64,000 nt of DNA, from assembly GCA_949289295.1 (NCBI GenBank), contig CASENM010000051.1, positions 62,001 through 126,000 on the forward strand, read 5' to 3'. This document shows positions 6,842-51,596 of the stretch, piece by piece (position 1 is the first letter of the stretch; each line of letters opens with the position of its first letter). The stretch is from an uncultured Bacteroides sp. Lineage in GTDB: Bacteria; Bacteroidota; Bacteroidia; Bacteroidales; Bacteroidaceae. A model generated the notes under the pieces. It searched no databases, was not told where the DNA came from, and saw only the letters and a list, made by a program, of their open reading frames with translations. The position numbers and the translations under genes were made by a program.

Positions 6842-6912
6842 AAAATACAGGCTGTCTCCTATTAGAATTGGCTGTCAGAAAGACAAGGCTAACGGGAGAC
6901 AGCCTGTATTTT
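6842..6912. terminator. Long-arm bidirectional terminator
   Basis: An 18-bp inverted repeat (arms 6842-6859 and about 6894-6911, AAAATACAGGCTGTCTCC and its complement) encloses a loop of about 35 bases. A-rich and T-rich flanks would act as U-tracts on either strand. It lies between converging genes; the stop of the minus-strand permease falls at its right edge. Confidence 0.8.
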
Positions 6913-9286
6913 ATTCCGCACGCAAGTTTTCCGTGGGGTTTGTACGGGCCGTATGCCATACCAGCCAGGCCGCGAGAAGCATCACCAGCAAGAGAACAAC
7001 CACTGCACAAGAGACAAAAAGATACCACGTCAGCGCGATTTTTACGGCAAACAGTTCCAGCAGCGACCTGCTGATCATCCATGCTGCCAGAGTGCCTGCC
7101 AGTATAGCCGGGAGGGCAATCCTCAACAAATCCACAAGGAAGATGCGCTCCACATCGGTCACCGTGGCTCCATGAATGATGCGGACGGCTATTTCCGAAC
7201 GCCGCCGCACCACCTCGTCGCGCACATAGGCCAACAGCCCGGTCAAGGCGATGACCAGCACACAAAGTCCGGCAAAGAGCACGCTGTTGCGCACGCGGAA
7301 CAGGGAGTCGTAAAGACTGCTTATCTGGGTGCCAAGGCTGGTCACAATCTTTTCCTGGCTCGTCACGGTGGCACTGACCACCCTCTGCACCTCACGGATA
7401 ACCTCGGGCGACATCTCCTGCACCCGGACATACAGATTCCACCGGGGCACCTCATGATAGAACATCACCGTGGGACGCTCGTCACGCTCCTCCGACATCT
7501 GCGAGCCGATACGGATTTCCTCATACACGCCGCATACGGTGAGCGGACCACCGTGCTCGCTCAGAAAGAACGCTTTGCCTATAGGCGAGCCTGTCCATCC
7601 GGCCAATGTCTCCATCCGCTCCACAAAGTTCCGGCTCACCATCGCCTGACGGGTCACCGTATCGCTGAGATGCGGAGTGAACACTTCGCCTTCGATGACC
7701 GGAATCTGGAAAGTCTTGTGATAATCGTCGCTCACATAATACATGTCGGCCACGTTCATATATTCTTCCCCCGTCTCCGGATTGTACACATTGTTCCCGC
7801 TGCAATGGGAGGCAAGCGACTGGTAGCCCGCTGTCACGGAAACCACTCCGGGAAGTTTCTCCAGTTCCTGTGCACAGCGCTCCCTCTCATGCTGCTTCAC
7901 CCCACCCAAGTCGGCTGTCAGTACATGTTTGTACTCGAATCCGGCGTCATAGTTGGTCAGGGCGTGATACTGCAGGGCAATCACAGCCAGAAGGGTCACA
8001 AAGAGAGCGGTGAGCGTGAACTGCACGAAAAGCAGGCCGAGCTTCCACCGCTTCTTGCTCTCCGAATAGCGGCGATAGGCATACGTGACGGGGATGCGTG
8101 CGTAAAGGTAACCAGGCACCATGCCGCACACCACGACTACAGCCAGCGTGACCAACAGACACACCGACACGGCCCGGGGAGTGAACACTGACCGCAGGCT
8201 ATGCCCCAGCTGTTCCTGAAGGAAATCCTGAAGCCCGAAGATGAACAGCACCGCCAGCCCGAGGCTCAGGATGCCCACATAAAGGAACGACTCGGAAAGA
8301 ATCATCCGGTAGATGTCTTTGTCGGCCGCGCCATAACAACGGCAGGTGGCAATGCTCTTCGCCCGGTTCACCATCGACGAAATGGAAAGCAGCACATAGT
8401 TGAGCAGGGCCGCCAGCAGCATGATTACCGCAAACGCAAGGAACACGATGTTCATCACCCGGTTGTAGTCGGACGAGACGAATATGTCGCCCACCGGCTC
8501 CAGCGAATAGTCCATCTTGCCTCCCGACTTTTCCAGAGCCTCCGAGATATGGTCGTCCATCATCCGCTCAATGTTGGGGCGGAGCCGGTCGGGATCCGTT
8601 CCCGGACGCAGGCGCACATAGCCCGTATAGCGGTCGTTGCCCAGCCAGTTGTCGCGCCCATCCCACGACACCCACTTGATGGTAGGCAAAGCCAGCATCA
8701 TGTTGAAGCGCGGCAGATGGGTATTCTCCGGAAGATTGTCGAACACCCCCGCCACCGTGACCCGCAGGTCAGGGTTAAGTTTCCACTCCAGCGTACGCCC
8801 GATGACATTCTCGCCCAACGCCTCAAGCAACTCACGCGAGATATAGGCGTTTCCTTCCTTTTCCAGTCCCGTACGGGGCTGCTCACCCATCAGCAACGGG
8901 ATGGGGAATATGTCGAAGAAAGAACTGTCGCACATCAGTACCTGGCAGGACACTTCCTTCTTGTCCTCCGACACGAAAGGGGTGCCTTCCAAAGAAAATT
9001 CCGTGAAACGGGTAGCGGCCTCCACCTCCGGACAATAGGACTTGATTCCCGGTGCCACGGCTCCCGACACGTTGGGATGCGTACGCCATTCGGTACTGCT
9101 CCCGTACAGGTAGGCTTCCTTTATGCGATACGTATCTTCCAGCCGGGGGATGAAATTGTCGTACGAACGCTGGAAGATGACTTCGGCAAGGAGTGTGAGG
9201 CCTACGGCCAGTCCCACCCCCAGACAGACAATCTTCACCACGTTGGCATCCCCCTTCCGGAACAAAGATTTCAATGCTTGAATCAT
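6911..9286 (-). CDS. MacB/FtsX-type ABC transporter permease
   Basis: 791 residues with two FtsX-like halves: an N-terminal membrane helix (VVKIVCLGVGLAVGLTLLAEV), a large periplasmic MacB-PCD-like domain, three helices near residues 280-400, a second extracytoplasmic domain and three C-terminal helices. It ends in RTNPTENLRAE, the same type of tail (NPxxxxKTE) as the three permeases at 39-46 kb. Such proteins couple ATP hydrolysis to efflux or to export of peptides, lipids or lipoproteins rather than import. The ATPase gene 73 bases upstream on the same strand is its likely partner, and both follow a sigma54-type promoter at 10089. The substrate is unknown. Confidence 0.85.
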   Translation of the reverse strand: MIQALKSLFRKGDANVVKIVCLGVGLAVGLTLLAEVIFQRSYDNFIPRLEDTYRIKEAYLYGSSTEWRTHPNVSGAVAPGIKSYCPEVEAATRFTEFSLEGTPFVSEDKKEVSCQVLMCDSSFFDIFPIPLLMGEQPRTGLEKEGNAYISRELLEALGENVIGRTLEWKLNPDLRVTVAGVFDNLPENTHLPRFNMMLALPTIKWVSWDGRDNWLGNDRYTGYVRLRPGTDPDRLRPNIERMMDDHISEALEKSGGKMDYSLEPVGDIFVSSDYNRVMNIVFLAFAVIMLLAALLNYVLLSISSMVNRAKSIATCRCYGAADKDIYRMILSESFLYVGILSLGLAVLFIFGLQDFLQEQLGHSLRSVFTPRAVSVCLLVTLAVVVVCGMVPGYLYARIPVTYAYRRYSESKKRWKLGLLFVQFTLTALFVTLLAVIALQYHALTNYDAGFEYKHVLTADLGGVKQHERERCAQELEKLPGVVSVTAGYQSLASHCSGNNVYNPETGEEYMNVADMYYVSDDYHKTFQIPVIEGEVFTPHLSDTVTRQAMVSRNFVERMETLAGWTGSPIGKAFFLSEHGGPLTVCGVYEEIRIGSQMSEERDERPTVMFYHEVPRWNLYVRVQEMSPEVIREVQRVVSATVTSQEKIVTSLGTQISSLYDSLFRVRNSVLFAGLCVLVIALTGLLAYVRDEVVRRRSEIAVRIIHGATVTDVERIFLVDLLRIALPAILAGTLAAWMISRSLLELFAVKIALTWYLFVSCAVVVLLLVMLLAAWLVWHTARTNPTENLRAE

Positions 9287-9359: not shown

Positions 9360-10037
9360 TTACATTTCCGCAATCGACGACACCACCTGACCATCGAACA
9401 AGTTGATGACACGTCCGGCAAAACCAGCATCACGCTGGCTGTGAGTTACCATCACGATGGTCGTGCCCTCCTTGTTCAACTCGGTAAGCAACTGCATCAC
9501 CTCCAGACCGTTCTTTGAGTCAAGATTACCGGTCGGCTCGTCGGCCAGGATAATCTTCGGACCGGAAACCACCGCACGGGCAATGGCCACACGCTGCTGC
9601 TGACCTCCGGAGAGCTGCTGCGGATAGTGTTTCGCACGGTGGCTGATGTTCATCCGCTTCAGTATATCGGCCACACGGCGCTTGCGCTCATCCGACGGAA
9701 TATGCAGATAAGTAAGCGGAAGCTCCACATTCTCGAACACATTCAGCTCGTCAATCAGGTTAAAGCTCTGGAACACAAAACCGATGTTTCCCTTGCGCAC
9801 GTTGGTACGGTCCTTCTCCTTCAGATGACCCACCTCCTGATCCCCCAGATAATAGTTGCCCGAAGTCGGGTTGTCGAGCAGGCCGAGAATGTTCAGCAAG
9901 GTAGACTTGCCGCATCCCGACGGTCCCATGATGGCCACAAATTCTTTCTCGTTCACTTCCAGACTGACCTTGTTCAACGCAATGGTTTCCACTTCTGTCG
10001 TACGGAATGTCTTTGTCAAATTCTCAATCTTAATCAT
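9360..10037 (-). CDS. ABC transporter ATP-binding protein (LolD/MacB-type)
   Basis: 225 residues with a complete nucleotide-binding domain: Walker A GPSGCGKST (38-46), Q-loop FVFQSFNLI, signature LSGGQQQR (142-149), Walker B with DEP (about 164-168) and the switch His in VMVTHSQRDA. It is closest in pattern to the LolD/MacB ATPases that drive FtsX-type permeases. It heads the operon with the permease at 6911-9286. The 39-50 kb efflux cluster has three permeases but no ATPase and shares this operon's promoter architecture, so this protein may power those as well (inference). Confidence 0.92.
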   Translation of the reverse strand: MIKIENLTKTFRTTEVETIALNKVSLEVNEKEFVAIMGPSGCGKSTLLNILGLLDNPTSGNYYLGDQEVGHLKEKDRTNVRKGNIGFVFQSFNLIDELNVFENVELPLTYLHIPSDERKRRVADILKRMNISHRAKHYPQQLSGGQQQRVAIARAVVSGPKIILADEPTGNLDSKNGLEVMQLLTELNKEGTTIVMVTHSQRDAGFAGRVINLFDGQVVSSIAEM

Positions 10038-10088
10038 AGCTGTATGTTTTTGGTTTTTCTAATCTGTTCGTCTTGTACAGATAAGGAA

Positions 10089-10103
10089 GCAAAAGCCATG
10101 CCA
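10089..10103 (-). promoter_or_regulatory. Sigma54 (RpoN)-type -24/-12 promoter
   Basis: The minus strand reads TGGCATGGCTTTTGC, matching the sigma54 consensus TGGCAC-N5-TTGC with one difference and correct spacing. It lies 52 bases upstream of the ATPase start. An almost identical element with the same upstream sites stands before the TolC gene at 50048-50062. Confidence 0.75.
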
Positions 10104-10157
10104 AACCTATAATCAACTGATTGCCAGCAATACATAAGCACAAGCCCGAACAAGAAG

Positions 10158-10196
10158 TGTCTAAAAATTTGACAATGGGTGTATGATTTTTTGACA
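10158..10196. promoter_or_regulatory. Two tandem 17-bp dyads, likely NtrC-type activator sites
   Basis: TGTCTAAAAATTTGACA (10158-10174) and TGTATGATTTTTTGACA (10180-10196) are imperfect palindromes with TGTC/GACA-type ends, 5 bp apart (22 bp centre to centre). They begin 55 bases upstream of the end of the sigma54 element. The same pair at the same distance occurs at 50117-50155, beside the NtrC-type regulator gene. Confidence 0.75.
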
Positions 10197-10252
10197 GCCG
10201 GATTTCAAACGGCAGGAAGCGGAAACGTACCGGGCAGCAACGAGACTTTATA

Positions 10253-10314
10253 AAAACGCTTCGGCGTTCGGAGTAAAATGCTTCGGCGTTTTACCTCAAA
10301 CGCCGAAGCGTTTC
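10253..10314. repeat. 22-nt-period mini-hairpin repeat, three units
   Basis: Three 18-nt units lie at 10253, 10275 and 10297. The first two are of the AAAACGCTTCGGCGTTTT type (7-bp stem, TTCG loop) and the third is its reverse complement. Together with the sigma54 promoter and dyads they fill the 302-base gap between the ATPase and the CAT-like gene. They may act as a terminator for the CAT-like gene, whose stop lies just beyond them. Confidence 0.8.
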
Positions 10315-10339
10315 GTCCCGATGCCCCCAGACCGACGGG

Positions 10340-11005
10340 TCATACACCGTCCGGAGCCCGGAACAAATCTGCAATTTCCTGCATGTCGTTGATGAGCTTG
10401 CACGTGTGATAACCGTCGGCCACGGCATGGCTCACAAAAACGGAAACCGGTATCAGTATCCGACCCTCCGACTCAAAATATTTCCCGAACTTGATGAGAG
10501 GGAAAAGAAGACTGCTCTCCGAGTAGGTATCTTGCGCGAAGGCGGTATAGCTCAACCACGGCAGACACGAAACGGGGCAGAAGTTGGCAGGCTGTCCGGG
10601 ACGTGCCTTGATGACACCCGTCACGTCGCGATACCGCTCCATGTCGGCGACTATCGTCCGGTAAAACGTATCGAAATCATCGCTGTAGTCACTCCAGATA
10701 TCGGTGAATGTCTTGTTCTCCGGATGGAAAAGCGTATAGCTGGGCACAACCTCTTCCCAATACCCCAGTTGCCCCTCGCCGTTGAAACTCATCCGGAACT
10801 CTTTATTCCGGTTGACGGCTTTCATGATGACATAGAGCATCACCGGGAAAAAGCGGAGTCCCCTTGCCTTCTGCACGGCCACCAGACGGGTGATGTCAAG
10901 GTTGGCGTTCAGATTGTACTTGCACTTGATTTGCGAGTAATAATAATCGAAATAAATGCTCCGCTCCCAGGTGGAACGGTCGATGACATGGAAATGGCTG
11001 TTCAT
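10340..11005 (-). CDS. Chloramphenicol acetyltransferase-like (CatA fold) protein
   Basis: 221 residues, the usual length of type A chloramphenicol acetyltransferases. It begins like them (WERSIYFDYYYSQIKCKYN) and keeps the C-terminal catalytic region as SHAVADGYH, matching the CAT HHAVCDGYH with the catalytic second His and the structural Asp-Gly. Substrate-pocket residues differ, so resistance should not be assumed; such CAT-like genes are common in Bacteroides and may acetylate another acceptor with acetyl-CoA. ATG 11005 is chosen over an upstream codon because it gives the family start. It is divergent from the glutaredoxin-like gene. Confidence 0.8.
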   Translation of the reverse strand: MNSHFHVIDRSTWERSIYFDYYYSQIKCKYNLNANLDITRLVAVQKARGLRFFPVMLYVIMKAVNRNKEFRMSFNGEGQLGYWEEVVPSYTLFHPENKTFTDIWSDYSDDFDTFYRTIVADMERYRDVTGVIKARPGQPANFCPVSCLPWLSYTAFAQDTYSESSLLFPLIKFGKYFESEGRILIPVSVFVSHAVADGYHTCKLINDMQEIADLFRAPDGV

Positions 11006-39158: not shown

Positions 39159-41555
39159 TCATTCCGTTTTTATCGAGTCGGCCGGGTTCGCGCGGGCGGT
39201 CCGGAAGTTCTGTATGGTAACGGTTGTCTGCGTGATGAGCGCCACCACCACAAGAGCCAGCGCAAACACCCACCACGACATACTGACGCGCACACTGAAA
39301 CTTTTCAGCCACTCATTTACCGCATAATAAGCTGCCGGCACAGACAAGATAAAGCATATCACCACAATACGCAGATAGATACGGTTGAACATCCAGAGAA
39401 TCTCACCCGTGGAAGCTCCGAACACCTTCCTGATACCGATTTCCTTCCTACGGTATTCCGCCTCGAATATGACCAGTCCGAACACGCCCACCAACGAAAT
39501 CAGGATAGCCAGCACACTGAACAGCGTCACGATATGCTGCTGGTCGGCCTCTTTCTGGTAGAGCGAGGCGTAGACCCTGTCGAAGAATTCCACGTCGATG
39601 GAATAGCCCTCGAAATTCCGCTCCAACGCCTCACGCACATGCGCCAGCGCGGCGTCCATATCGCTCCCCGCCTTCACGCGGATATAGGCGTACTGCAGCT
39701 TCAGCGAGTCGAACACCGGATTGGTGACGAACACGAAAGGCACGTCGTCCGCCTTGTGCAGGGAGGTAAGCTGCAGGTTGTTCACATAGCCCACCACCGA
39801 AGCCTGCTTCCCCCACGGATTGAAGTCGAACGTCTCGCCCACGGGGATGCCCATCATCTCCTTCGCGTTGCGTGTAGCAACGAAGTTCAGCCGTCCGGTC
39901 CGGATGGAGTCGTTCGGAAGGAAGCCGCGCCCCTCCTCCACCTTGATGCCCATCGTGGAAAGGAAGTTGGGTGTCACGTTGATCAGGAACGCCCCCGCCT
40001 CCTTGTCCTTGTATTCCAGCGGATAGGTGCTGTACACGTTCATGCCTCCCAGTTTCACATTCGCATAAGCCACATCAGCTATCTCGGCACATCCTTTCAG
40101 CTGGTGGTCGAATCCCTGATACATGGAGCTTGTGACAGGAAGTCCCGGCAGGGCGGCTATCAGAAGCTGGTCGCGGTCCACGCCCAGCTCATACCGCCGC
40201 ATGTAGTTGTTCTGCATCCAGATGAACGCGGTGACGATGATCAGCACGAGCGAGATGACATACTGGAATCCGATGAGGCACGTACGCAGACGCTTCCCCT
40301 TCCCCGAAAGCGCGAAGTTGCCCTTCAGCATCATGGCGGGAGGGAAGGAAGTCATGTAGAACGCGGGATAGAGTCCGGCCAACGCGCCCACCGCCAACGA
40401 AATCACGCCGCTCAGCGCCACGGGCTTCCAATAAAGCACGAGCGAGGGCGTGAAATGAAGGAAGTCGAGACCGCCCGTGCGGCCCAGACAGGCCACCAGC
40501 GCCAGCGAGAGCAGCCATGCGAGGAACGCGATGCTCACCGACTCGCACACCAGACCGAGACGCAGCGTGCCGACAGGGCTTCCGAGCACCTTTTGCGTGT
40601 TGATGCTCCGGATGCGCATCGGGGTGAGCGCCGTGCTGAAATTGATCAGGTTGACCGCCGCCACCAGAATGATCAGCAGGGCGATGCTGACCAGCAGATA
40701 CAGGTCCTGGCGGCTTCCGGTCCTCAGAAAGTCGTTGCCTTTATACTCATAGTAGACATCGGGCAGCGGAAGGACGTACGCCTCGAAAACGGACTCCGAG
40801 TCGTCCTTCAGACGTTCGTTCACCCCCGCCTTGTCCATCTGGATCCGGATGTCCTCGGGAGTCACGCCCGGCTTCAGGCGGAGGAATCCGCAGAAGTTGT
40901 AACTCAGCCAGTGGTCCTTCTGGATGTCGTTCATGCGGATGAAAAGCGGATTGTCGGCAAACTGGGAGTTCTCCGGGAAGTCCTTGTAGACTCCGCACAC
41001 GCGGTATCGGATGACATCCTCGTCAGACACCCAGCAGTCGCCGTTCCGGTACACATACGACCCCACGGCGTTCCCTTCGGGGAAGAACCTGCGCGCCATG
41101 CTTTCCGACATCAGCATCCCGTCGGGAGCGTCCATCCCCTCGGCGTTGCCTTCCACAAACTCCATCCCCACCGTCTGCGCGAAGCTTTTGTAGACGGCGT
41201 ATGGCTCCTCCATGAAATAGGAGGGGTTGTCGGGATCGGTGCAGAAAGCCACCTTCCCCCACGACTTGGCGAAAATGCTTCCGCACTCCACTCCGGGGAC
41301 GCGCTCGATCACATAGTCGATCATCCCTCGGGGAAGGATGGCCCCGAAGTACGAAGGGCCGCCGTCGATGTGCGTGTCGAGCATCACCACCCTCCCGGCG
41401 TCGGGATAACAGGTGTCGAAGCTGCGCTCATAGCCCACTTTCATCATGATGACCACGAAGGCGGCGAAAGCCCCCGACATCCCCAGCAGATTGAGCGACG
41501 AAGCGAGCCGGAAACGCCCCAATGTATAAAACAGGTTTCTGACAATCGTATTCAT
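39159..41555 (-). CDS. MacB-like ABC permease 3 of the efflux cluster
   Basis: 798 residues with the MacB/FtsX two-half layout: N-terminal helix LASSLNLLGMSGAFAAFVVI, periplasmic domain, three middle helices, a second extracytoplasmic domain, and three C-terminal helices (LFSVLAILISLVGVFGLVIFE, then EYRRKEIGIRKVFGAS, the cytosolic coupling segment). It ends NPADSIKTE. It is the last gene of a minus-strand row with two related permeases, GIN lipoprotein, adaptor and TolC. No nucleotide-binding domain is fused or encoded nearby. The substrate is unknown. Confidence 0.88.
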   Translation of the reverse strand: MNTIVRNLFYTLGRFRLASSLNLLGMSGAFAAFVVIMMKVGYERSFDTCYPDAGRVVMLDTHIDGGPSYFGAILPRGMIDYVIERVPGVECGSIFAKSWGKVAFCTDPDNPSYFMEEPYAVYKSFAQTVGMEFVEGNAEGMDAPDGMLMSESMARRFFPEGNAVGSYVYRNGDCWVSDEDVIRYRVCGVYKDFPENSQFADNPLFIRMNDIQKDHWLSYNFCGFLRLKPGVTPEDIRIQMDKAGVNERLKDDSESVFEAYVLPLPDVYYEYKGNDFLRTGSRQDLYLLVSIALLIILVAAVNLINFSTALTPMRIRSINTQKVLGSPVGTLRLGLVCESVSIAFLAWLLSLALVACLGRTGGLDFLHFTPSLVLYWKPVALSGVISLAVGALAGLYPAFYMTSFPPAMMLKGNFALSGKGKRLRTCLIGFQYVISLVLIIVTAFIWMQNNYMRRYELGVDRDQLLIAALPGLPVTSSMYQGFDHQLKGCAEIADVAYANVKLGGMNVYSTYPLEYKDKEAGAFLINVTPNFLSTMGIKVEEGRGFLPNDSIRTGRLNFVATRNAKEMMGIPVGETFDFNPWGKQASVVGYVNNLQLTSLHKADDVPFVFVTNPVFDSLKLQYAYIRVKAGSDMDAALAHVREALERNFEGYSIDVEFFDRVYASLYQKEADQQHIVTLFSVLAILISLVGVFGLVIFEAEYRRKEIGIRKVFGASTGEILWMFNRIYLRIVVICFILSVPAAYYAVNEWLKSFSVRVSMSWWVFALALVVVALITQTTVTIQNFRTARANPADSIKTE

Positions 41556-41676: not shown

Positions 41677-44046
41677 TCATTCCGTCTTTATCGAGCTGGC
41701 CGGGTTCTCGCTGGCCGTGCGCCAGCTCTGCACCGTCACCGTAAGCAGCGTGACACAGGTCACCACAAGGAACGAGGCGAGGAAGATCCACGCGCGTATG
41801 GGGGTCTTCTCGGCAAACCCTTCCAGCCAATGATGGCCGATCCACCAGCCGAAGGGAGCCGCCGCCACGAAGCACCCCAGCAATATATACAGGTAACGCC
41901 GGTTGAACATGCGGAGTATCTCGCCCGTGGTGCTCCCGAATATCTTGCGGATGCCGATCTCCTTCCGCCGGTACTCGCTCTCGAACATCGTCAGGCCGAA
42001 CACCCCGATCATGCTGATCACGATGGCGAGAAGGGAGAAAAGCAGAATCTGGCGGGTGAAGCGAAGCTCGTTGCGGTAGGCGTCGTCCAGCACGCGGTCC
42101 ATGAAGCGGAAGTTGAAGTCGTGGCCCGGAGTGAACTTCTCCATCGCCTTCTGGAGCGAGCGCACCACCTCCACCTTGTCCGTGCCGGCGGAGACGCGGA
42201 CGTTGACGGTCATCGGCCACCACATACTCTTGAGTTCCTTCCCGTACAGGATGAAAGCCATCGGACGCTCCTCGTTGTCGCTGCGGAACGTGGTGTATCT
42301 CACATTCTCGCAGAAGCCCACCAACTCGCACGGCAGCGTGCCGTCGCCGAAGTCCAGATCAGCCGGAGGCTCGCCAAGCGTGAGCCACGGATATTTCCTG
42401 TGCGCGGTCTCGTTGAAGATGAACGCGTTGGAGTCGGTCGGCTTGAACCCCCTCCCCTCGGTGATGCGGATGCCCATCACATCGAAATAACGATAGTCCA
42501 CCGGAAGAATGTCAGCGTTCACCATCTTGTCTCCTTCTCCCCATCCCCACGACATGTAGTCGTCGCCGGAACTGAGCACGAACTGCGACAAGGCCACGCC
42601 CTCCACTCCCGACACACGGGAAAGCTCGTCGACGACGGCATCCTGCCGCATGATGGCGTCCTGCGTCATCTCGCCCACCACAATGGCGTCGCGGGCATAA
42701 CCATAGTCGGACACACGGATGTACCGGCTCTGCGCATACATGATGCCGATGGCGATAACCAGCACAAACGACACGAAGAACTGCACGCAAACCAACGCCG
42801 TACGCAAACGCCGCCCCTTGGGCGACAGGCCGAACGAACCTTTCAGCACCAGCGCCGGAGGAAAAGACGTGACATAACGCGAAGGATACACGCCGGCCGC
42901 CACTCCCATGAACACGCTCAGCGCAGCCGTGGCCGACAGAAGGCCGGGATGTTTCCCCAGCGTCAGGTCGGCGGTCACCAGATCCTGCACTCCCGAATCG
43001 TGCAAAGCCAGAAGAAGCAGCAACGAGAGCAGGAAAGCGGAAACACTGACAAGCACCGACTCCCCCACAAGGCTCGCCCGGAGCGAACGGACAGACGCTC
43101 CCAGCACCTTCTGCGTGTTGATACTCTTGACGCGCGTGGGAGTCTCCGCAAGCGTAAAATTAAGGAAATTGATTACGGCGACCACGACAATCAGGAACGA
43201 CACGCACAGAAGAAGATACACCGTGGTGCGGCTCGTGCCGCCCGTCCCGGTGGAGAAATGCACCTCAGACAAGGGCACAAGACGGAAGAAATCCGTCCTC
43301 CCCTTCACCACGACCGTAGGTCCGAAAGGATCCATCTCAGCCGTTTTTTCCATGACCTTCCGCTGAATCTCGTCCGCCTGCGACGGATCGCTCAGACGCA
43401 CGTAACAGCGATAATTCCACGCATTCCAGTAATCCTTGTTGTCCCGGTCATGGCACGGCATGAATACGGGATTCCCCAGCTGGGTGTTCTCCGGAAAGTC
43501 CTTGTAGACACCTCCCACCACCAGCGGCTGGTTGTCCGCTTTTTTCCCGAAGAACACGGTTTTCCCCACCGCGTCCGCCGTGCCGAAAAAACGCAACGCC
43601 ATCGACTGCGAAATCAATATGTGGTCCTCCACATCGAGCGCGTCCGCGTTTCCGCACACCATTTCGGGACTGAACACGTCCACAAAATTCCCGAACCCTT
43701 TCTGCACCATCCCATGGAACAAGTGTCCGTCCACCTCGAAATCCGCTCCCATGTCCCAGTCCAGCAACGACATGGACTCGATATACGGAGAACTGCTTCT
43801 GACAAGCTGTTCGCAGAAAGGACGTGGCAAATTTGACTGCCATCCGTTGTCGTCTCCCTGATCGAACTCCAGCCGGTAAATCCTGTCGTAATCCTTGTAT
43901 CCCTTGTTGAAATTCAGATCGTAATCCACCTGCGTCATGATGACGAAGAACGAGGCGAAGGCGACGGCCAGACCCACGATGTTCAGCACACTAGCAGTAA
44001 AGAACCGCCGGAAGGTGTGCGTAAAGTTGCGTATCAGAGTTTTCAT
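41677..44046 (-). CDS. MacB-like ABC permease 2 of the efflux cluster
   Basis: 789 residues of the same family and layout as its neighbours. The first helix region is FTASVLNIVGLAVAFASFFVI, the coupling segment EYRRKEIGIRKIFGSTTGE and the end NPASSIKTE. The large periplasmic part contains the MacB-type beta/alpha repeats. ATG 44046 (MKTLIRNFTHTF) is used; an earlier TTG at 44058 is less likely. It probably forms a heterodimer or homodimer with an ATPase supplied from elsewhere. Confidence 0.88.
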   Translation of the reverse strand: MKTLIRNFTHTFRRFFTASVLNIVGLAVAFASFFVIMTQVDYDLNFNKGYKDYDRIYRLEFDQGDDNGWQSNLPRPFCEQLVRSSSPYIESMSLLDWDMGADFEVDGHLFHGMVQKGFGNFVDVFSPEMVCGNADALDVEDHILISQSMALRFFGTADAVGKTVFFGKKADNQPLVVGGVYKDFPENTQLGNPVFMPCHDRDNKDYWNAWNYRCYVRLSDPSQADEIQRKVMEKTAEMDPFGPTVVVKGRTDFFRLVPLSEVHFSTGTGGTSRTTVYLLLCVSFLIVVVAVINFLNFTLAETPTRVKSINTQKVLGASVRSLRASLVGESVLVSVSAFLLSLLLLLALHDSGVQDLVTADLTLGKHPGLLSATAALSVFMGVAAGVYPSRYVTSFPPALVLKGSFGLSPKGRRLRTALVCVQFFVSFVLVIAIGIMYAQSRYIRVSDYGYARDAIVVGEMTQDAIMRQDAVVDELSRVSGVEGVALSQFVLSSGDDYMSWGWGEGDKMVNADILPVDYRYFDVMGIRITEGRGFKPTDSNAFIFNETAHRKYPWLTLGEPPADLDFGDGTLPCELVGFCENVRYTTFRSDNEERPMAFILYGKELKSMWWPMTVNVRVSAGTDKVEVVRSLQKAMEKFTPGHDFNFRFMDRVLDDAYRNELRFTRQILLFSLLAIVISMIGVFGLTMFESEYRRKEIGIRKIFGSTTGEILRMFNRRYLYILLGCFVAAAPFGWWIGHHWLEGFAEKTPIRAWIFLASFLVVTCVTLLTVTVQSWRTASENPASSIKTE

Positions 44047-44054
44047 GTTGGCAA

Positions 44055-44145
44055 TCAATAGTTAATTAATAATTAATAGTTAAGAATAAATAACGGCATT
44101 CTTCATTTCCAGAAGTTCTTCATTCTTCATTCTTCATTTAAAATG
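44055..44145. repeat. AT-rich and TTCTTCATTC repeats between permeases 2 and 1
   Basis: TAATTAATAATTAATAGTTAAG-type words are followed by a string of TTCATTCTTCATTC words up to 44140. This is the same combination as at 41562-41672, but without the clear matching inverted arm. Confidence 0.55.
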
Positions 44146-44146
44146 T

Positions 44147-46492
44147 TTATTCCGTCTTCAGGTTCTCCACCGGATTCTCGCGGGTGGCCTTCAGGCTGAT
44201 GAGCCATACCGAGCCGAGGGAAATCAGGGTCACGGCGATGAAAGCCGCCAACGGAACCCACCACGGAAACGCACTCTCATAGGTCACGATACGGTCAATC
44301 TGGACGACTCCGAACACAGCCAAAGGCACGGCAAGCAACAGGCTCACCAGAATAGAGACCAGAGAGAAACGCATCAGACGCATGCGCTCGCCCGTCGAGC
44401 TGGAGCCGAACACCTTGCGGATAGCCATGTCACGCTTGCGCTGGGCGATGAAATAGATGCTCATCGCCGTCAGACCCAACAGGGAGATGAGCAGGGCGGC
44501 CCCGGTGAAGATGCCCATCAGACGGTTCATGCGGTAGAAGTCGGAATACAGATCCCTTAACTGCACGTCGTACCATTGTGAGTCGAAAGAGAAATCCTTG
44601 GCGGCTATCCTGAACAGGTCGTCCAGCTCCTTCTTGTAGGCTTTCAGGTCACCGCCCTGCACCTCCACTGACACGTCCCACGGGTAGATGCTGTCGGGGT
44701 GCTGGATCTGTATCTGGAGCGGATGGACGTCGTTGTCTATCAGGTCGCGCCGGATCCGGAAGTCCTTGAATACGCCCGCTATCTGTATCTGCCCGTAATT
44801 GTCGCTCGTGAAATGATCCGTGGCCCCGATGGTGGCCAGCGTCTTCATCGCGCCTTCGCTCATGAAGAGATTGTTGCCTCCCATCGGTGTGTGGCGGTCG
44901 TCGACAATCCGAATGTGATAGATGTCGAGGAAAGCCGAATCGACGATAAAGGTCTGGAAACTCATCTCCAGCGTGCTGTCGGCCGAAGGGATGTAGGTCG
45001 TGTTGTTGTTTCCTCCGTTCAGCGGCAGTCCGCACGAAAACGACACGTTCTTCACGAAAGGCAGTTTCATGGCCTCCTCGCGGAAAACCTGCAGGTCCTT
45101 CTGCTCGCCTATCGACGGATAGGTCAGCACATTGCCGAACTCATAGCCCAACGGCGCGTGCGCGATACGGTAGATCTGCACGGAGAGATAGGCCGAACAG
45201 GTGAGCAGAGCGATGGTCAGTCCGCTCTGCACGATGTGGAGCGTGCGGAGGTAGACGGCCTTCGTCTTGCGCCGGAACGTTCCCTTCACCACGTCCATGG
45301 GATTATAGTTTGAAAGCACCGTGGCGGGGACGAAACCCGAAAGAAAGGCCAGCAGCAGGATGAACACGATATACACGGCGGCGGTCACCGCATCAAGGTC
45401 GCCCACCAAGTCGATCTTGGCATTGAGCAGCTCAATGGCGGTAGGCTCGGCAGCCTTGGCCAGAATGAATCCGATGACGAACGAAACGAACGTGAGCAGC
45501 AGTGACTCCACGATCAGCCGCCAGAAAATGCTCCGGCGCGACGAACCGAGCAGGCGGCGTGTGGCCATCTCCTTGGCCCGATAGCTGGTCTGCGCCACGC
45601 TCATGCTGATGTAGTTCAGCACGGCCATCAGGAGAATGAGCACGCCCACGGTGATGAAGATCACCACCAGCTTGAAGTCATACTGGTTCAAGGACATCGT
45701 AGCTGGTATATCGGAGAAATAGAAGTCGTGCCAGGGGATAAACTGCAGCTGCTTGTACGAGTCACTGTTCTTGTATATCCAGAAGAACTCCCTCAGGTAG
45801 TCCATCACATCGTCCGCCTTCCGGTTCAGGTCGGTGCCCGGAGCGGAACGGAAGAAAAGCACGGAGCCTGCGGCGTTGTTCATATGTGTACACTCGATCG
45901 AGCAGCCCCAGTTGATGTACTTCATGTTCTCGAAGGGGATGAACGCCTCGATGTCGGAAGGGATGACGGAGTTGTCGATGTCCTCGATGATTCCGGTCAC
46001 GGTAAACGTCCCCTTGTCGCAGGGAATCACCGTGAGCGTTTTCCCCAAGGCGTGCTCCGTGCCGAACAGACGGACGGCAGCCGAACGGGTGAGCACGATG
46101 CTGTTGTTGTCGGTCAGCAGATTCCTGCGGTCGCCCTCCAGCAGAGGGAAGCGGAAAAACTCGAAAAAGTTTTTCTTCACCGAGGCCCCCAGCAGCTGCA
46201 CGGGCTTGTCGCCGGTCTGCACATAAGGGTTCGAGATGCTCAGGGCGCACCAGTCCTCTATCTCGGGATAGCGGCTCTGCAGGCGGTCGCCCAGATTATA
46301 ATGTCCTCCCGCCCAATATTCGTTGGCCATCACCGAGATACGGTCGGCATCGGGCAGGTCCTTGTCCACGGTGAGCTGTCGCGTCACCATATTCGCGATA
46401 AGGAGCACGAACATCAGCGAGATGCTCAGGCCGGCCACGTTGACCAGCGTAAAGAGCTTGTTGCGCTCCAGAAAGGTAAAATAAGTTTTCAT
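44147..46492 (-). CDS. MacB-like ABC permease 1 of the efflux cluster
   Basis: 781 residues. N-terminal helix KLFTLVNVAGLSISLMFVLLI, middle helices near 280-400 with SVAQTSYRAKEMATRRLLGSS, and C-terminal ALLISLLGLTAMSIYFIAQRKRD (in part) followed by MAIRKVFGSSS. It ends NPVENLKTE. It differs more from the other two permeases than they do from each other. ATG 46492 (MKTYFTFLERN) is chosen over an earlier alternative codon at 46504. It is first of the three permeases, 39 bases after the GIN-domain lipoprotein gene. Confidence 0.88.
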   Translation of the reverse strand: MKTYFTFLERNKLFTLVNVAGLSISLMFVLLIANMVTRQLTVDKDLPDADRISVMANEYWAGGHYNLGDRLQSRYPEIEDWCALSISNPYVQTGDKPVQLLGASVKKNFFEFFRFPLLEGDRRNLLTDNNSIVLTRSAAVRLFGTEHALGKTLTVIPCDKGTFTVTGIIEDIDNSVIPSDIEAFIPFENMKYINWGCSIECTHMNNAAGSVLFFRSAPGTDLNRKADDVMDYLREFFWIYKNSDSYKQLQFIPWHDFYFSDIPATMSLNQYDFKLVVIFITVGVLILLMAVLNYISMSVAQTSYRAKEMATRRLLGSSRRSIFWRLIVESLLLTFVSFVIGFILAKAAEPTAIELLNAKIDLVGDLDAVTAAVYIVFILLLAFLSGFVPATVLSNYNPMDVVKGTFRRKTKAVYLRTLHIVQSGLTIALLTCSAYLSVQIYRIAHAPLGYEFGNVLTYPSIGEQKDLQVFREEAMKLPFVKNVSFSCGLPLNGGNNNTTYIPSADSTLEMSFQTFIVDSAFLDIYHIRIVDDRHTPMGGNNLFMSEGAMKTLATIGATDHFTSDNYGQIQIAGVFKDFRIRRDLIDNDVHPLQIQIQHPDSIYPWDVSVEVQGGDLKAYKKELDDLFRIAAKDFSFDSQWYDVQLRDLYSDFYRMNRLMGIFTGAALLISLLGLTAMSIYFIAQRKRDMAIRKVFGSSSTGERMRLMRFSLVSILVSLLLAVPLAVFGVVQIDRIVTYESAFPWWVPLAAFIAVTLISLGSVWLISLKATRENPVENLKTE

Positions 46493-46531
46493 GTTGACAG
46501 TCAATAATTGATAATGAATAACGGACAGTGA

Positions 46532-47131
46532 CTATTCCCCCACTTTCAGGTTACGCACGTTGCAGCTTCCTACGCCGCTCCTGCTGATCTTGCTGTTTCC
46601 GGCCCGGCCGCTCAGCGTCACACTGCCCACTCCGTCCACCTCAGCCTCCAGCATGTCACAATCCACGTGCAGGGACGCGTCTCCCACTCCGTCAAAATCC
46701 AGCGTCAGGTTGCGGCAATGCAGGTCGTCCACACTGAGAGTCCCTACGGCATCCACATCAAAGCGGATGTCGTCCGCATCCAGACGGTCCTTGCAACGGA
46801 ACGAGCCTACTCCGTTGAACGAGACCGCTTCCAGTTCGGGAGCCGAAATGTAGATGGTCAGTCCCTTGTTCGATTTCCTGACCTTACGCTGGCTGACCAC
46901 AAGCGTGCCGTCCTCCACCTCGGCCGAAGTGGCCTTCACCAGATTCTCGTCGCCTTCCATCCGGAACGCATACGCATCAGCCTGCGTGAAACATACCGAC
47001 GCCACCCCGTTGATATCGATCGAGCGGAACCCTTCCACCCGGCGCTCTTCTGTCACTCTGTTTCCGGCCAGGCACGACACCAGGCTTCCCATTCCCAAAA
47101 GCACTATTGACATTAAAATGAATCTTCTCAT
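46532..47131 (-). CDS. GIN-domain (DUF2807) lipoprotein
   Basis: 199 residues. The signal peptide ends in lipobox LVSC, then a right-handed beta-helix-like GIN domain follows: GFRSIDINGVASVCFTQ, the repeated GVG turns (FNGVGSF, FDGVGDASL, VDGVGSV, RSGVGSC) and many short strands. It is a cell-envelope protein, sometimes called a head domain of adhesin type, with no established activity. Its place between the adaptor and the permease genes suggests an accessory role at the cell envelope. The frame is open upstream; ATG 47131 begins the signal peptide. Confidence 0.85.
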   Translation of the reverse strand: MRRFILMSIVLLGMGSLVSCLAGNRVTEERRVEGFRSIDINGVASVCFTQADAYAFRMEGDENLVKATSAEVEDGTLVVSQRKVRKSNKGLTIYISAPELEAVSFNGVGSFRCKDRLDADDIRFDVDAVGTLSVDDLHCRNLTLDFDGVGDASLHVDCDMLEAEVDGVGSVTLSGRAGNSKISRSGVGSCNVRNLKVGE

Positions 47132-47190
47132 AACCGTATTGAATTTATATGTTTTTATATCCTTATTTTTTCTCTCCGGAAGGCTCCGGA

Positions 47191-47252
47191 AAAACGTCAA
47201 GGCGTTTTGATCAAAACGTAAGGACGTTTTCGGTAAAACGTCAAGGCGTTTT
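47191..47252. repeat. 22-nt-period mini-hairpin repeat, variant form, three units
   Basis: Three 18-nt units at 47191, 47213 and 47235 read AAAACGTCAAGGCGTTTT, AAAACGTAAGGACGTTTT and again the first. The stem ends AAAACG/CGTTTT match the other three sites, but the loop differs. Spacers are 4 nt. They lie between the adaptor gene's stop and the GIN lipoprotein gene in the same operon. Confidence 0.8.
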
Positions 47253-47286
47253 TTCATTCCGGATCCCGTCTCTGGAAACCAACAAC

Positions 47287-48537
47287 TTATCTCAGTATCA
47301 AGACCTCATTGTCCTTATAGCTCTCGTAGCCCGACACGATGACGCGCTCGCCTTTCTCCAGCCCCTCAACCACTTCATAATACTGGGGGTTCTGGCGACC
47401 GATGCGTATTTTACGGCGATAGGCCTTCTTCCCGTCCTTGTCGACCACGAAGATCCAGTTTCCGCCCGTCACCTGGAAGAAAGTGCCCTTCGGGATGAGC
47501 ACGCTCTGGGTAGGCTCGCCCAACTGGAGGTCGATATAATACGTCTGTCCGCTGCGGATGTTCTCGGGGCGTGTACCCTGGAAGATGAAGTCGGTGCGGA
47601 AACGTCCGTCGCGCACTTCAGGATAGACCTTGCGCACTTTCAGGTTGAACTGCGACCCCTGACGCTCGAAAGTGGCGGGAAGTCCGTTGGTCACCCGGTC
47701 GATATAGTGCTCGTCAATCATCGCCTCGATCTTGAAATCCGAGAGATCATTGATCTGGCCCACCATCTGGCCCGCGGTGATGTTCTGTCCCAGCTCTGCG
47801 TCGAGCAGACCCAGTTCCCCGTCAATCGGGGCGCGCACTTCCAGTTTGTCCTTCCGCTCGCGGATCAGCAGCACGTTCTGGCGCATGTTCTGAAGATTCT
47901 CCTCCATCTGGTCCATCTGGATGGTACGGTAGATGGAGTCCTGCACCAGCCGCTCCGTAACCAGTCCGTGCTTTTTCAGCGATACCTCATAATCCTCCTT
48001 GGCCTGGAGATACTCCTCGCGGCTGATGAGACGTTCCTTGTAAAGACGCTCATACTGGCGGTAAGTGCGCTGCTTGCGCCGGGTGTCGATGTCGAGCTGC
48101 ACCTTCTCGGTCTCGTTGTTCAGCTTGTCCTGCTGCATGGTGACCTGCGTGTTGCGGAGCAGGTTCTGCTTCTCGGCCAGTTCCGACTCGGCGTTCAGAA
48201 TCTGCAGGTCGAGGTTCGAGTTGCTCAGGCGGAGAATCACGTCGCCCTTCTTCACGTGCGCGCCTTCCTCCACCACTTTCTCCTGCACGATACCGCCCTC
48301 TTCGGGACTGAGCTGCACGACAGAGATGGGCTGCACCTGCCCGTTTACCCGGATATAGTCGTTGAACTCTCCGTACGTCACATCGGCAATGTTCAGTGAG
48401 CGTCCGTCCACCTTGAGCGTAGACGCGTGGTTGCCGAACACAATCCAAAGCAGCAGTGCCAGTACGATGCCTCCTCCCACGATATAGGGGATGTGCTGCT
48501 TCTTGATTCCTTTTTTCTTTTCCAGTTGAATATCCAT
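47287..48537 (-). CDS. HlyD/MacA-type periplasmic adaptor (membrane fusion protein)
   Basis: 416 residues: one N-terminal membrane helix (IPYIVGGGIVLALLLWIVFG), a lipoyl-like half (VVQLSPEEGGIVQEKVVEEGAHVKKGD, in part), a long coiled-coil hairpin (about 100-230), the second lipoyl half (LEVRAPIDGELGLLD), then a beta-barrel domain and the membrane-proximal domain ending in VSGYESYKDNEVLILR. It would link the inner-membrane permeases to TolC. It lies between the TolC-type and GIN lipoprotein genes on one strand. Confidence 0.92.
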   Translation of the reverse strand: MDIQLEKKKGIKKQHIPYIVGGGIVLALLLWIVFGNHASTLKVDGRSLNIADVTYGEFNDYIRVNGQVQPISVVQLSPEEGGIVQEKVVEEGAHVKKGDVILRLSNSNLDLQILNAESELAEKQNLLRNTQVTMQQDKLNNETEKVQLDIDTRRKQRTYRQYERLYKERLISREEYLQAKEDYEVSLKKHGLVTERLVQDSIYRTIQMDQMEENLQNMRQNVLLIRERKDKLEVRAPIDGELGLLDAELGQNITAGQMVGQINDLSDFKIEAMIDEHYIDRVTNGLPATFERQGSQFNLKVRKVYPEVRDGRFRTDFIFQGTRPENIRSGQTYYIDLQLGEPTQSVLIPKGTFFQVTGGNWIFVVDKDGKKAYRRKIRIGRQNPQYYEVVEGLEKGERVIVSGYESYKDNEVLILR

Positions 48538-48544: not shown

Positions 48545-48665
48545 GTTGATAGTTAACGGTTAATAATTAATAGTCGATAGTTAACAATTAATAGTTGATG
48601 ATTAATGCTTGTGGCAACAACGGCACAAAAACAGAATTATTAATTATTAACTATTAATTGTTCAT
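48545..48665. repeat. AT-rich TTAATAATTAATAG-type repeats between TolC and adaptor
   Basis: The 102-base gap and the last 26 bases of the TolC-type gene consist largely of TTAATTATTAAC words and reverse forms. The repeat extends into the coding region, which ends NNEQLIVNN, a tail that reads straight from the repeat. Confidence 0.6.
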
Positions 48666-50025
48666 TATTTATCACCGGTTTTCCCTTGTAGTAGTCCACA
48701 AGCCTGCATTTCAGCAGATAGGTGAGTTTGCTCTGCAGAAGAAGGGTCTCGCTTTCCAACAGTGTGGAAGCGTTGTGCTGCACATCGAGCGAGGACATCA
48801 GTCCCTCCTCGAACTTGCGGCGGGTCACGCGGTAGGCCACCGAATCGGACGCCACCTTTTTCTCCATCTGCAGGGTCTCTTTCAGATAGCCCTCCCGGTC
48901 GTGCACCGCCTGGAGCACCAGTTTCTGGAGTTCCGTTTTCTGCTCCTCATACTGCTCGCCCGCAATGCGGTAGTTGTTGCGCGCCTGGCGCATGCTCACC
49001 ACGCCTGAAAAGCGGTTGAAGAGCGGAATGCTCATGCTCAGGCCGAAATACTGTCCCAAGTTGTTGTCGAACTGCCGCCCGAAACGGTCGTATCCGCTTT
49101 TATGAAGTTCCTTATAATAGGACGAGGAGACTCCCGCGAAGAAAGAAATCTGGGGCAGGATGTTGGCCCACGACCCCTTGCGCTGCATGAGGGCGATACG
49201 CTTGTTCATCTCCGCCTGCCGCAGCGTGGGATTGACACTCAACGCAATGCTCACCACCTCCTCCGGACACTCCGCCGAAAGTTCCGCCAGTGAGATTGCC
49301 TCCGCATCGAGCAGACAGGTGTCGAGCGTCAGGGAATCCGCAGCCGGAAAGTTCATCTTCTGTTTCAGCACCAGCATGGCCGTAGTGAAAAGGTTGCGCT
49401 GGTGGGTCAGGTTATAGGCGTCGGTAGCCTGCTGGGCCTCCATCTGAGCCACATCGGCCATCCCCTTCAGTCCCAGCTCCTCCTGCCGGCGAGTCTTGTA
49501 GAGCAGTGAATCGCTCTCGGCCAGCTTTTTCCGCGCCAGACGCTCGGTACCGTAATAATAGAGCGCGTCGATATAGGCCTGGAAGGTCTCGAGAGCCGTG
49601 TTGTCCCGCGCCTCCTGAAGTGCGGCCTTTCCCAAAAGCACGGCGGCTTTCGCACGCCTCAGCTCGTTGACCAGACTCCCTCCGCGGAAAAGGGTGACCG
49701 AAGCCTCCAACGCATACGAGTTGTTGAATGTAGACACATTGTTGTAGGTGTTCGTCTCAGGATCGACCGAACGTCCGTAGTTATACTGCAGCCCTGTACT
49801 TCCGCTTATTCCCGGCAGAAAATTCCCGATGGCCTGCAGGCGGTCGAGTTCATAATTCTTCTTCTCCAGCTGACGTTGTCTCACCGTATGGTTATGGTCG
49901 ACGGCATACGCCATACACCGGTCGATGCTCCACACTTCCTGAGCGGGAGCGTGGAGCGCGATGCAACCGGCTATCGCCATGCAAAAGACTTTCATGTGGT
50001 TTGTTGCGTTCATCATCAAATTCAT
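48640..50025 (-). CDS. TolC-family outer-membrane efflux protein
   Basis: 461 residues with signal peptide (MKVFCMAIAGCIALHAPAQ, from residue 11) and two OEP repeats: SIDRCMAYAVDHNHTVRQ and LEKKNYELDRLQAIGNFLPGI, then NPTLRQAEMNKRIALMQRKG and LPQISFFAGVSSSYY. Such proteins form the trimeric outer-membrane channel of tripartite pumps. The start is 50025 or one of three later ATGs; 49995 fits the signal peptide best. A sigma54-type promoter ends 23 bases upstream of 50025. The C-terminal tail is repeat-derived. Confidence 0.9.
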   Translation of the reverse strand: MNLMMNATNHMKVFCMAIAGCIALHAPAQEVWSIDRCMAYAVDHNHTVRQRQLEKKNYELDRLQAIGNFLPGISGSTGLQYNYGRSVDPETNTYNNVSTFNNSYALEASVTLFRGGSLVNELRRAKAAVLLGKAALQEARDNTALETFQAYIDALYYYGTERLARKKLAESDSLLYKTRRQEELGLKGMADVAQMEAQQATDAYNLTHQRNLFTTAMLVLKQKMNFPAADSLTLDTCLLDAEAISLAELSAECPEEVVSIALSVNPTLRQAEMNKRIALMQRKGSWANILPQISFFAGVSSSYYKELHKSGYDRFGRQFDNNLGQYFGLSMSIPLFNRFSGVVSMRQARNNYRIAGEQYEEQKTELQKLVLQAVHDREGYLKETLQMEKKVASDSVAYRVTRRKFEEGLMSSLDVQHNASTLLESETLLLQSKLTYLLKCRLVDYYKGKPVINNEQLIVNN

Positions 50026-50047: not shown

Positions 50048-50062
50048 TCAAAATCCATGCCA
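50048..50062 (-). promoter_or_regulatory. Sigma54 (RpoN)-type -24/-12 promoter
   Basis: The minus strand reads TGGCATGGATTTTGA, with the -24 GG and spacing of the sigma54 consensus and a weaker -12 part. It drives the TolC operon. It is 13 of 15 identical to the element at 10089-10103. Confidence 0.7.
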
Positions 50063-50116
50063 AACGCCTAACTTGTTTATTTTCAGAAGCAATCAAGAAA
50101 CGTCACGCCCGGAAAG

Positions 50117-50155
50117 TGTCAAAAATTTATACACCCGGTGTCAAATTATTTGTCA
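50117..50155. promoter_or_regulatory. Two tandem 17-bp dyads, likely NtrC-type activator sites
   Basis: TGTCAAAAATTTATACA (50117-50133) and TGTCAAATTATTTGTCA (50139-50155) are separated by 5 bp; the second is an almost perfect palindrome. They start 55 bases from the end of the sigma54 element, just as at 10158-10196. They also lie 71-109 bases upstream of the NtrC-type gene at 50226, so autoregulation is possible. Confidence 0.75.
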
Positions 50156-50225: not shown

Positions 50226-51596
50226 ATGGCAAAACAAGGAACCCTGCTGGTTGTGGATGACAACCAGAATATACTGACCTCTCTTCATTATCTGTTGGGC
50301 GAACACTTCAACCGGGTACTGACACTCCACTCGCCGGTCACCCTCCCCACCCTGCTCCAGAAAGAACCGATCGACCTCATCCTGCTCGACATGAACTTTT
50401 CGTCGGGCATCAACAGCGGCAATGAGGGGCTTTACTGGCTGCGTGAGATCAAGCGCATGCGTCCGCAGATGCCGGTCGTGCTGTTCACGGCATACGCTGA
50501 CATCAATCTGGCCGTAACGGGACTGAAAGACGGGGCGACAGACTTTGTGGTGAAGCCTTGGGACAACACGAGACTGGTGCAGACCCTGCTGGAAGCTTAT
50601 CAGAAAGGAAAGGGAAAGGAAAAGAAGAAAACGGCCGCGACTCCCGTCCGGGAACAGGGACCCATGTATTGGGGAAATTCCGAAGCCATCCGCCCGCTCA
50701 AGATTCTGGTGAAAAAGGTCAGCACCACCGATGCCAACATCCTCATCACCGGCGAGAACGGTACGGGCAAGGACATGCTGGCCCGCGAAATACACCGCCT
50801 CTCCAACCGGAGCGGAGGTCCGATGGTGACGGTGGACATGGGAGCCATCACGGAATCGCTCTTCGAGAGCGAGCTGTTCGGCCATGTGAAAGGGTCGTTC
50901 ACCGATGCGCACACCGACCGGGAGGGACGTTTTGAAGCCGCCAACGGAGGCACCCTGTTTCTCGATGAAATAGCCAACCTGCCCTACCACCTGCAGGCCA
51001 AGCTGCTCACCGCCATCCAGAAACGGAGCTTCGTGAGAGTGGGAAGCAACCAGCCCCAACCCACCGACATCCGCCTGATCTGTGCCACCAACCGCAACCT
51101 CGACGAAATGGTGCGCCGGGGAGAGTTCCGTGAAGACCTGCTCTACCGCATCAACACCATCCACCTCCATATTCCCTCCCTGCGGGAACGTCGTGAGGAC
51201 ATCCTGCCCCTGGCCCGCCTGTTTCTGGAACAATACAACACGCAATACGGACGCAACCTGCAGCGCTTCAGCCCCGATGCCGAGAAACGCCTTCTTGCCT
51301 GTCCCTGGTACGGTAATATCCGCGAACTGCAGCACACCGTGGAAAAGGCGGTGATCCTTTCCGACGGAGAGGAACTGACAGCCGACACCCTGCAAATTTC
51401 AGACTCCCCACATCCCTCCGGAGAAAACGCTCCCCACCCACAGGAAGAAGAGGAAATGAAGACAATCGATGAAATGGAACGTACGCTCATCACGAAAGCC
51501 ATCGCCAAATGCAACGGCAACCTCTCACAAGCCGCCACATTGCTTGGCGTGACCCGGCAGACCCTGTACAACAAAATGAAACGCTATGGCATTTAG
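50226..51596 (+). CDS. NtrC-type sigma54-dependent response regulator
   Basis: 456 residues. The receiver domain (1-120) has phospho-acceptor Asp55 in LILLDMNFS, Asp11/Asp12, Thr88 and Lys110. The AAA+ domain has Walker A GENGTGKD (176-183), Walker B TLFLDE (about 243-248) and arginine-finger region FREDLLYRIN. The sigma54-contact loop reads GSFTDA (223-228) where GAFTGA is the norm; GAFTDA-like variants are common in Bacteroidetes. A Fis-type helix-turn-helix (NGNLSQAATLLGVTRQTLYNK, in part) closes it. It overlaps the histidine kinase gene by 11 bases and is divergent from the efflux operon, its most likely target. Confidence 0.95.
   Translation: MAKQGTLLVVDDNQNILTSLHYLLGEHFNRVLTLHSPVTLPTLLQKEPIDLILLDMNFSSGINSGNEGLYWLREIKRMRPQMPVVLFTAYADINLAVTGLKDGATDFVVKPWDNTRLVQTLLEAYQKGKGKEKKKTAATPVREQGPMYWGNSEAIRPLKILVKKVSTTDANILITGENGTGKDMLAREIHRLSNRSGGPMVTVDMGAITESLFESELFGHVKGSFTDAHTDREGRFEAANGGTLFLDEIANLPYHLQAKLLTAIQKRSFVRVGSNQPQPTDIRLICATNRNLDEMVRRGEFREDLLYRINTIHLHIPSLRERREDILPLARLFLEQYNTQYGRNLQRFSPDAEKRLLACPWYGNIRELQHTVEKAVILSDGEELTADTLQISDSPHPSGENAPHPQEEEEMKTIDEMERTLITKAIAKCNGNLSQAATLLGVTRQTLYNKMKRYGI

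Follow-up and report, generated by a model that had tools for sequence, protein, structure and literature searches.

Two predicted operons of an uncultured Bacteroides species, whose starts lie 40 kb apart, likely encode a single ABC export pump, and an NtrC-type response regulator encoded at 50226 is the predicted switch for both of them, a reading to which we assign a probability of about 0.8. Within the window, by which we mean the whole stretch of 64,000 nucleotides that was analysed, the two operons share a promoter layout of paired dyads at a fixed distance from a sigma54-type element, and the only ATPase gene of the two lies in the operon at 10 kb, apart from the genes for the outer membrane channel and the periplasmic adaptor.

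Promoters of the two operons

At the 10-kb promoter (site A), the upper dyad TGTCAAAAAATCATACA (10180..10196, minus strand) and the lower dyad TGTCAAATTTTTAGACA (10158..10174, minus strand) start at -93 and -71 relative to the first T of TGGCA in the -24/-12 element TGGCATGGCTTTTGC (10089..10103, minus strand). The 50-kb promoter (site B) repeats these positions on the same strand, with an upper dyad TGACAAATAATTTGACA (50139..50155) at -93, a lower dyad TGTATAAATTTTTGACA (50117..50133) at -71 and the element TGGCATGGATTTTGA (50048..50062). At both sites the starts of the two 17-bp dyads are offset by 22 bp, close to two turns of the helix, and 54 bp separate the lower dyad from the -24/-12 element. 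A previous sequence-only reading had placed these sites at 10089-10196 and 50048-50155 on the minus strand, and both were recovered when the layout was read again. Its distance of 55 bases counts up to the closest base of the dyad, the gap itself being 54 bp; the promoters that it called identical are so in spacing, with only 13 of 15 positions of the element matching and the -12 part of site B ending in GA, not GC; and its TGTC...GACA description fits the lower dyad of site A, the other three dyads deviating from it.

The twin pattern is rare. With up to 3 mismatches allowed, a scan of the window gave four matches, two places being matched on both strands, and 100 shuffles gave none; with up to 2 mismatches sites A and B are the pattern's only occurrences in the 2.85-Mb genome. 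A looser form of the pattern, with up to 3 mismatches, added two genome matches with 3 mismatches each, and the control also yielded 2; a version with a 4-bp spacer was not found in the window's own genome. As stand-alone evidence the -24/-12 element was rejected, with 3 matches in the window against 3.0 expected and 34 in the genome against 35 in the control, and the claim therefore rests on the combination of the parts and their conservation. Single dyads with up to 3 mismatches gave 22 strand matches in the genome against 9 in the control, five of the 22 belonging to sites A and B. The 17 outside these sites, still to be set against the control count of 9, include C27:142201, C27:139481, C1:4906, C15:46237 and C16:18368 (2-3 mismatches), and this surplus means that weaker targets may exist. 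Some of these dyads, which are weak matches, have another sigma54 activator within 4-8 kb (on contigs C1 and C27). An RNA element at site A was considered and rejected, as no Rfam model matched 9800-10500 at its gathering score.

Each spacer also carries an IHF-like element, AATCAGTTGATTA at site A (10110..10122, minus strand; no mismatch to WATCARNNNNTTR) and, in the same position at site B, AATAAACAAGTTA (50069..50081, minus strand; one mismatch). We take WATCARNNNNTTR to be the IHF consensus, and the protein that binds here may be a different one. Among 51 distinct spacers from 26 genomes, counting only one of the identical TolC spacers of G068 and G082, WATCARNNNNTTR occurs within one mismatch in 34 (mean 4.5 and largest value 13 in 1000 shuffles), and 31 of the matches start 18-26 bp above the -24 element (mean 0.9, largest value 5), with the qualification that the shuffles overstate the significance because the spacers share descent and the distance range was chosen after they had been viewed. 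A conserved YTG also stands some 22-24 bp above the -24 element, immediately ahead of the IHF-like WATCAR, and in several promoters this gives rise to TGAT-N-ATCA-like palindromes; across the 51 promoters the conservation of YTG goes beyond what the IHF consensus explains.

Genes of the two operons

All genes of both operons lie on the minus strand. Site A precedes an ABC ATPase of 225 aa (9360..10037; PF00005, E 4.7e-36; DarD-like by NCBIfam, below the cut-off) and a MacB/FtsX-type permease of 791 aa (6911..9286; PF12704 and PF02687). Site B precedes a TolC-type outer membrane channel (48640..50025; PF02321, E 9.1e-46), whose true start may, as we infer, be the ATG at 49995, followed by a membrane fusion protein or periplasmic adaptor (47287..48537; PF13437, TIGR01730), a DUF2807 protein that is not an ATPase (46532..47257; PF10988, E 5.7e-27) and, by domain matches, three MacB/FtsX-type permeases at 44147..46504, 41677..44058 and 39159..41555, the third being the last gene of the run. 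The domain search detected no ATPase domain in the six genes of the TolC run, nor in any of the four permeases, so that the two operons have a single ATPase gene, at 9360-10037. As the TolC operon is without an ATPase, the two operons probably encode one machine.

The component set of MacAB-TolC, namely TolC, adaptor and MacB_PCD/FtsX permease, is complete here, and the fusion of ATPase to permease that is typical of MacB is absent, the 225-aa ATPase being a separate chain. The exporter may thus work like MacAB, yet it is not MacAB, as its ATPase is separate. The NCBIfam equivalog cut-offs for the darobactin exporter (DarBCD) were missed by DarD (283.5 of 375 bits), DarC (187.2 of 450) and DarB (61.4 of 700).

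Several neighbouring genes were noted. Directly upstream of site A lies a chloramphenicol acetyltransferase-like gene (10340-11059, minus strand; PF00302; 233 of 270 bits with the CatA model), whose best match in the relative G007 is on a different contig. A shorter MacB_PCD/FtsX permease of 414 aa (15929-17173, minus strand), between the genes for prolyl-tRNA synthetase and an aminotransferase, is outside both operons, and a DUF3584 protein of 1231 aa (35339-39034, plus strand) ends near, and facing, the end of the TolC gene run. The DUF2807 gene stands inside the exporter operon in many relatives too, with an identity below that of its neighbours. That all of the DNA between the operons is a mobile element was rejected, since housekeeping genes (prolyl-tRNA synthetase, thiamine synthesis, aminotransferase) are represented among the 20 proteins scanned in and near it. 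A search of the window for tRNA genes found none.

Conservation of the twin-dyad promoter

In a set of 61 Phocaeicola genomes, twin dyads with a 5-bp spacer and at most 2 mismatches occur at 48 places in 25 genomes, and the reversed pattern that served as control occurs in none of the 61. Dyads with a 4-bp spacer are present in 21 genomes (control 0), which brings the union of the two forms to 42 of 61. The DNA was inspected at all 48 of the 5-bp places, and in part for a promoter at those with the 4-bp spacer. Every one of the 48 has a -24/-12-like element, which was not part of the search, matching at 9-12 of 12 positions and placed 69-73 bp from the start of the lower dyad (70-71 bp in 45 of them). 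Read in the opposite direction at the same distance, the best score was 8 of 12 at the 47 places where the reversed orientation fits the pattern, and over a wider range one locus (L243) reached 9, at 101 bp. Paired sites at a fixed distance from a -24/-12 promoter are thus found at each of these places, and the window's own genome carries rpoN (contig C7).

Judged by its best tblastn match, the gene next downstream is TolC at 24 of these places, a MacB-type permease at 16 and the ATPase at seven, and at one it matches no exporter protein. It had been proposed that finding the dyad pair beside many unrelated genes would count against a shared regulon; across the 61 genomes, 47 of the 48 places precede exporter-type genes. 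The exception (L253, in G016) precedes a CarboxypepD_reg protein and then a pectate lyase (L253:6001-10803). One of the permease cases, on contig C31 of G007, is only 29% identical. There (L233:2828-2866) a variant twin dyad, TGTCTATTTATCATACA / TGTATGAAATTCATACA, and a weak -24/-12 element at 71 bp stand before this distant permease homolog, and the variant is possibly another dyad code.

Seen from the regulator, 31 of 80 loci have a twin-dyad promoter at the threshold used. Below about 66% identity most regulator loci are without one (some of these loci have short flanks), whereas within the genus twin dyads do accompany regulators at 60-63% identity, spaced by 4 bp in many cases.

A recent duplication of sites A and B finds no support in their spacers, which agree at 26 of 54 positions; between-genome pairs have a mean identity of 41% (sd 6, largest value 57%). 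Two within-genome pairs exceed this maximum, one in G066 (31 of 52) and one in G016 between the TolC promoter and that of the CarboxypepD_reg and pectate lyase genes (39 of 53). The latter tops the largest between-genome value, which makes it likely that a promoter was copied recently in G016.

Location of the ATPase gene

An ortholog of the ATPase (at least 86% identity) is present as one copy in each of 26 of the 61 genomes, and its location is linked to the presence of a second twin-dyad promoter. In 21 of the 26, the ATPase operon, in many cases with a permease gene first, is headed by a twin-dyad promoter of its own, with a 4-bp spacer in G012, G013 and G084 and in degenerate form in G064 (4 mismatches). 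In the other five (G024, G026, G032, G078 and G083) the ATPase gene is on the same strand as TolC and the adaptor, downstream of both, and the fetched DNA showed no second twin-dyad promoter. The TolC-ATPase run of G083 has no recognisable twin-dyad promoter at all; at L171, the locus matching G083, the regulator lies downstream of the permease. One further weak match with a 4-bp spacer was seen in G024, on contig C5. The ATPase adjoins TolC in all 12 outgroup loci used (rumen Bacteroidaceae, Muribaculaceae and others), where the absence of the second promoter refers to the fetched DNA only.

Where both promoters lie on a single contig, the distance from the TolC to the ATPase promoter ranges from 8.5 kb (G023) through 23 kb (G029), 40 kb (the window) and 69 kb (G061) to 275 kb (G006), 409 kb (G016) and 2.4 Mb (G066). 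A tree of regulator and adaptor with 37 rows gives at least three changes in the state of the second promoter, which may represent one gain and two losses; G083 and G034, where no regulator or adaptor was read in the stretch used, were left out of it, as was L171, which is probably the same as G083. In G007 and G064 the ATPase promoter, at the start of a contig, directly follows the end of a permease-2-like gene, and it may for this reason belong to one long cluster as an internal promoter. Homology between the window and G007 forms a block that runs from 6915 to 10200, the latter lying four bases above the upper dyad; the window DNA above the block matches other G007 contigs, and the G007 DNA past its permease has its counterparts on other contigs of the genome that contains the window. 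On these boundaries and flanks, promoter, ATPase and permease appear to travel as one block.

These placements bear on the alternative that survives best, one regulon with two machines, in which the 10-kb ATPase would serve its neighbouring permease only and the permeases of the TolC operon would use another ATPase, such as that of a paralogous system. Such a system does exist on contig C20 of the same genome (L276), a paralogous exporter with an ATPase 74% identical to that at 9360-10037, which could in principle serve the TolC-operon permeases, and the permeases are themselves divergent paralogs. We nevertheless consider this improbable, since the orthologous ATPase is located inside the TolC run in the five genus genomes and the 12 outgroup loci, and since the C20 ATPase sits with its own adaptor, permeases, NtrC-type regulator and kinase behind a promoter with different dyads.

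The regulator and its likely recognition code

The regulator gene (50226..51596, plus strand) is divergent from the TolC operon. Its product has the domain set of an NtrC-type sigma54 enhancer-binding response regulator, comprising a receiver (PF00072, 3.4e-19), a sigma54-interaction AAA+ domain (PF00158, 1.1e-66) with a GSFTDA loop, and a Fis-type HTH (PF02954, 7e-15) with the helix VTRQTLYNKMK. The reading frame of a histidine kinase gene (51586..52890, plus strand; PF02518) overlaps its end, and this kinase is the likely partner of the regulator.

Of 27 regulators tried from the genus, 26 could be read, and all 26 have the helix TRQTLYNKMK. The promoter of the C20 system has a TGGCATGGATTTTGA element (around L276:9170, minus strand) and twin dyads of the GTGCGGTTCCGCAC (GTGCG) type at -91 and -70. 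This arrangement, with the upper dyad within 1-2 bases, recurs in 12 of the 13 C20-type loci examined, some of which are near-copies of one another, the exception being L292. The IHF-like element is weaker there, being found in the same position within 2 mismatches in six of 12 promoters, and the regulators carry a helix of the form TR[FY].LYRK in nine of nine read (12 tried, 3 unread). The two systems share promoter geometry and differ in dyad sequence; helix and dyad type go together in orthologs and differ together in the paralogous system.

This correspondence also speaks to the possibility that a different regulator, or two of them, acts at the two promoters and that their resemblance is convergent. 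The genome would offer candidates, with five strong sigma54-activator genes among nine matches above the cut-off. We regard it as very unlikely all the same: the regulator at 50226 adjoins this type of dyad both here and in relatives, the C20 regulator has another dyad type and another helix, and the genome search found no such twin dyad beyond sites A and B, the surroundings of the activators on contigs C18, C27 and C1 included.

The regulator at 50226 has GSFTDA at the position of the GAFTGA motif. Among 39 orthologs the loop reads GSFTDA in 29, GAFTDA in three, GSFTNA in three, GSFTSA in one and GAFTGA in two, with one unread, and the exact GAFTGA is found in two of the 79 loci read in a wider set of 80 (L147-L226) that overlaps the 39. 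GSFTDA or GAFTDA is seen in nearly all of these Bacteroidota regulators. The least probable of the alternatives is that the sites, though real, serve repression or work without sigma54, for instance as repressor operators over a housekeeping promoter, for although the loop deviates from GAFTGA and the text available of PMC10714721 calls the loss of sigma54 contact unknown for VfmH, whose loop is GAFTDA, the -24/-12-like element stands at nearly one distance in 48 of 48 places and GAFTDA is among the variants that the available text of PMC4641369, where DVU2106 is named with target operons, lists as staying active (GSFTDA is absent from this list). The portion seen of PMC12316311 calls GAFTGA invariant and filters activators on it, and such a filter would likely drop the regulator at 50226.

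A proposed regulon for a probably divided exporter

Control of both operons by the regulator at 50226 as one regulon, which the sequence-only reading had proposed, is supported by these results, the control itself being a prediction. That reading had missed the ATPase-less TolC operon, the two placements of the ATPase in relatives, the IHF-like element and the altered GAFTGA loop. According to the model that we propose, the kinase at 51586-52890 would phosphorylate the regulator, whose dimers would occupy both dyads, two helical turns apart on one face of the DNA; an IHF/HU-like protein would bend the spacer, and the AAA+ ring of the regulator would open sigma54-RNA polymerase at both promoters. 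The TolC operon would provide channel, adaptor and three permeases, and the 10-kb operon the ATPase and the fourth permease, for assembly into a single pump and export of its presumed substrate. As the parts are split over two operons, a working pump would need both to be activated simultaneously.

NtrC, ZraR and AtoC are NtrC-family two-component regulators with tandem upstream activating sites. The system described here resembles them in its receiver, AAA+ and Fis-type HTH domains, in its -24/-12 promoter, in having a divergent target operon and in paired palindromes whose centres lie some 90-110 bp ahead of the predicted start. It differs in the GSFTDA loop, in a likely target that is one ABC export pump in separate operons, and in having a paralog that shares the promoter spacing but uses other dyads. 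With MacAB-TolC and darobactin DarABCD-type exporters it has in common a TolC channel, an adaptor, MacB-type permeases and a MacB/DarD-like ATPase; unlike in those, the ATPase is a chain of its own, encoded in a separate operon, with four permeases and one ATPase over two operons, and all the scores seen here for the Dar and MacB models are below their cut-offs.

An enrichment of predicted sigma54 promoters for FtsX-like permeases (COG0577, of the ABC antimicrobial-peptide type) in Bacteroidia has been reported (PMC12316311, 2025), and the part of that paper available to us describes this as the first evidence for such a link. That part assigns these permeases no regulator, enhancer or cross-operon wiring. 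The regulon, its regulator and its dyads were not found in the literature searched, which took in few subscription papers.

Implications

More broadly, and tentatively, with odds that we place slightly short of even, a cassette of about 100 bp (twin dyads, bending site and -24/-12 element) may hold a dispersed machine together. In Phocaeicola the single ATPase gene of a multi-permease exporter could then leave the main operon, perhaps several times in evolution, and stay in service because it is always behind the same cassette, and the cassette could spread to new targets; paralogous Bacteroidota systems would share its geometry and be insulated by dyad and helix, and activators with GAFTDA or GSFTDA would be missed by a GAFTGA filter. 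The loop variants suggest that surveys requiring the exact GAFTGA undercount sigma54 activators in Bacteroidota.

The literature searched holds little on sigma54 regulation in gut Bacteroidota, for which a named regulator, a likely enhancer code and likely targets are offered here. The matched paralog with a different code makes specificity testable with reporters, and the 21 genomes with a second twin-dyad promoter, set against the five without, provide a natural experiment on co-expression after an operon has been broken.
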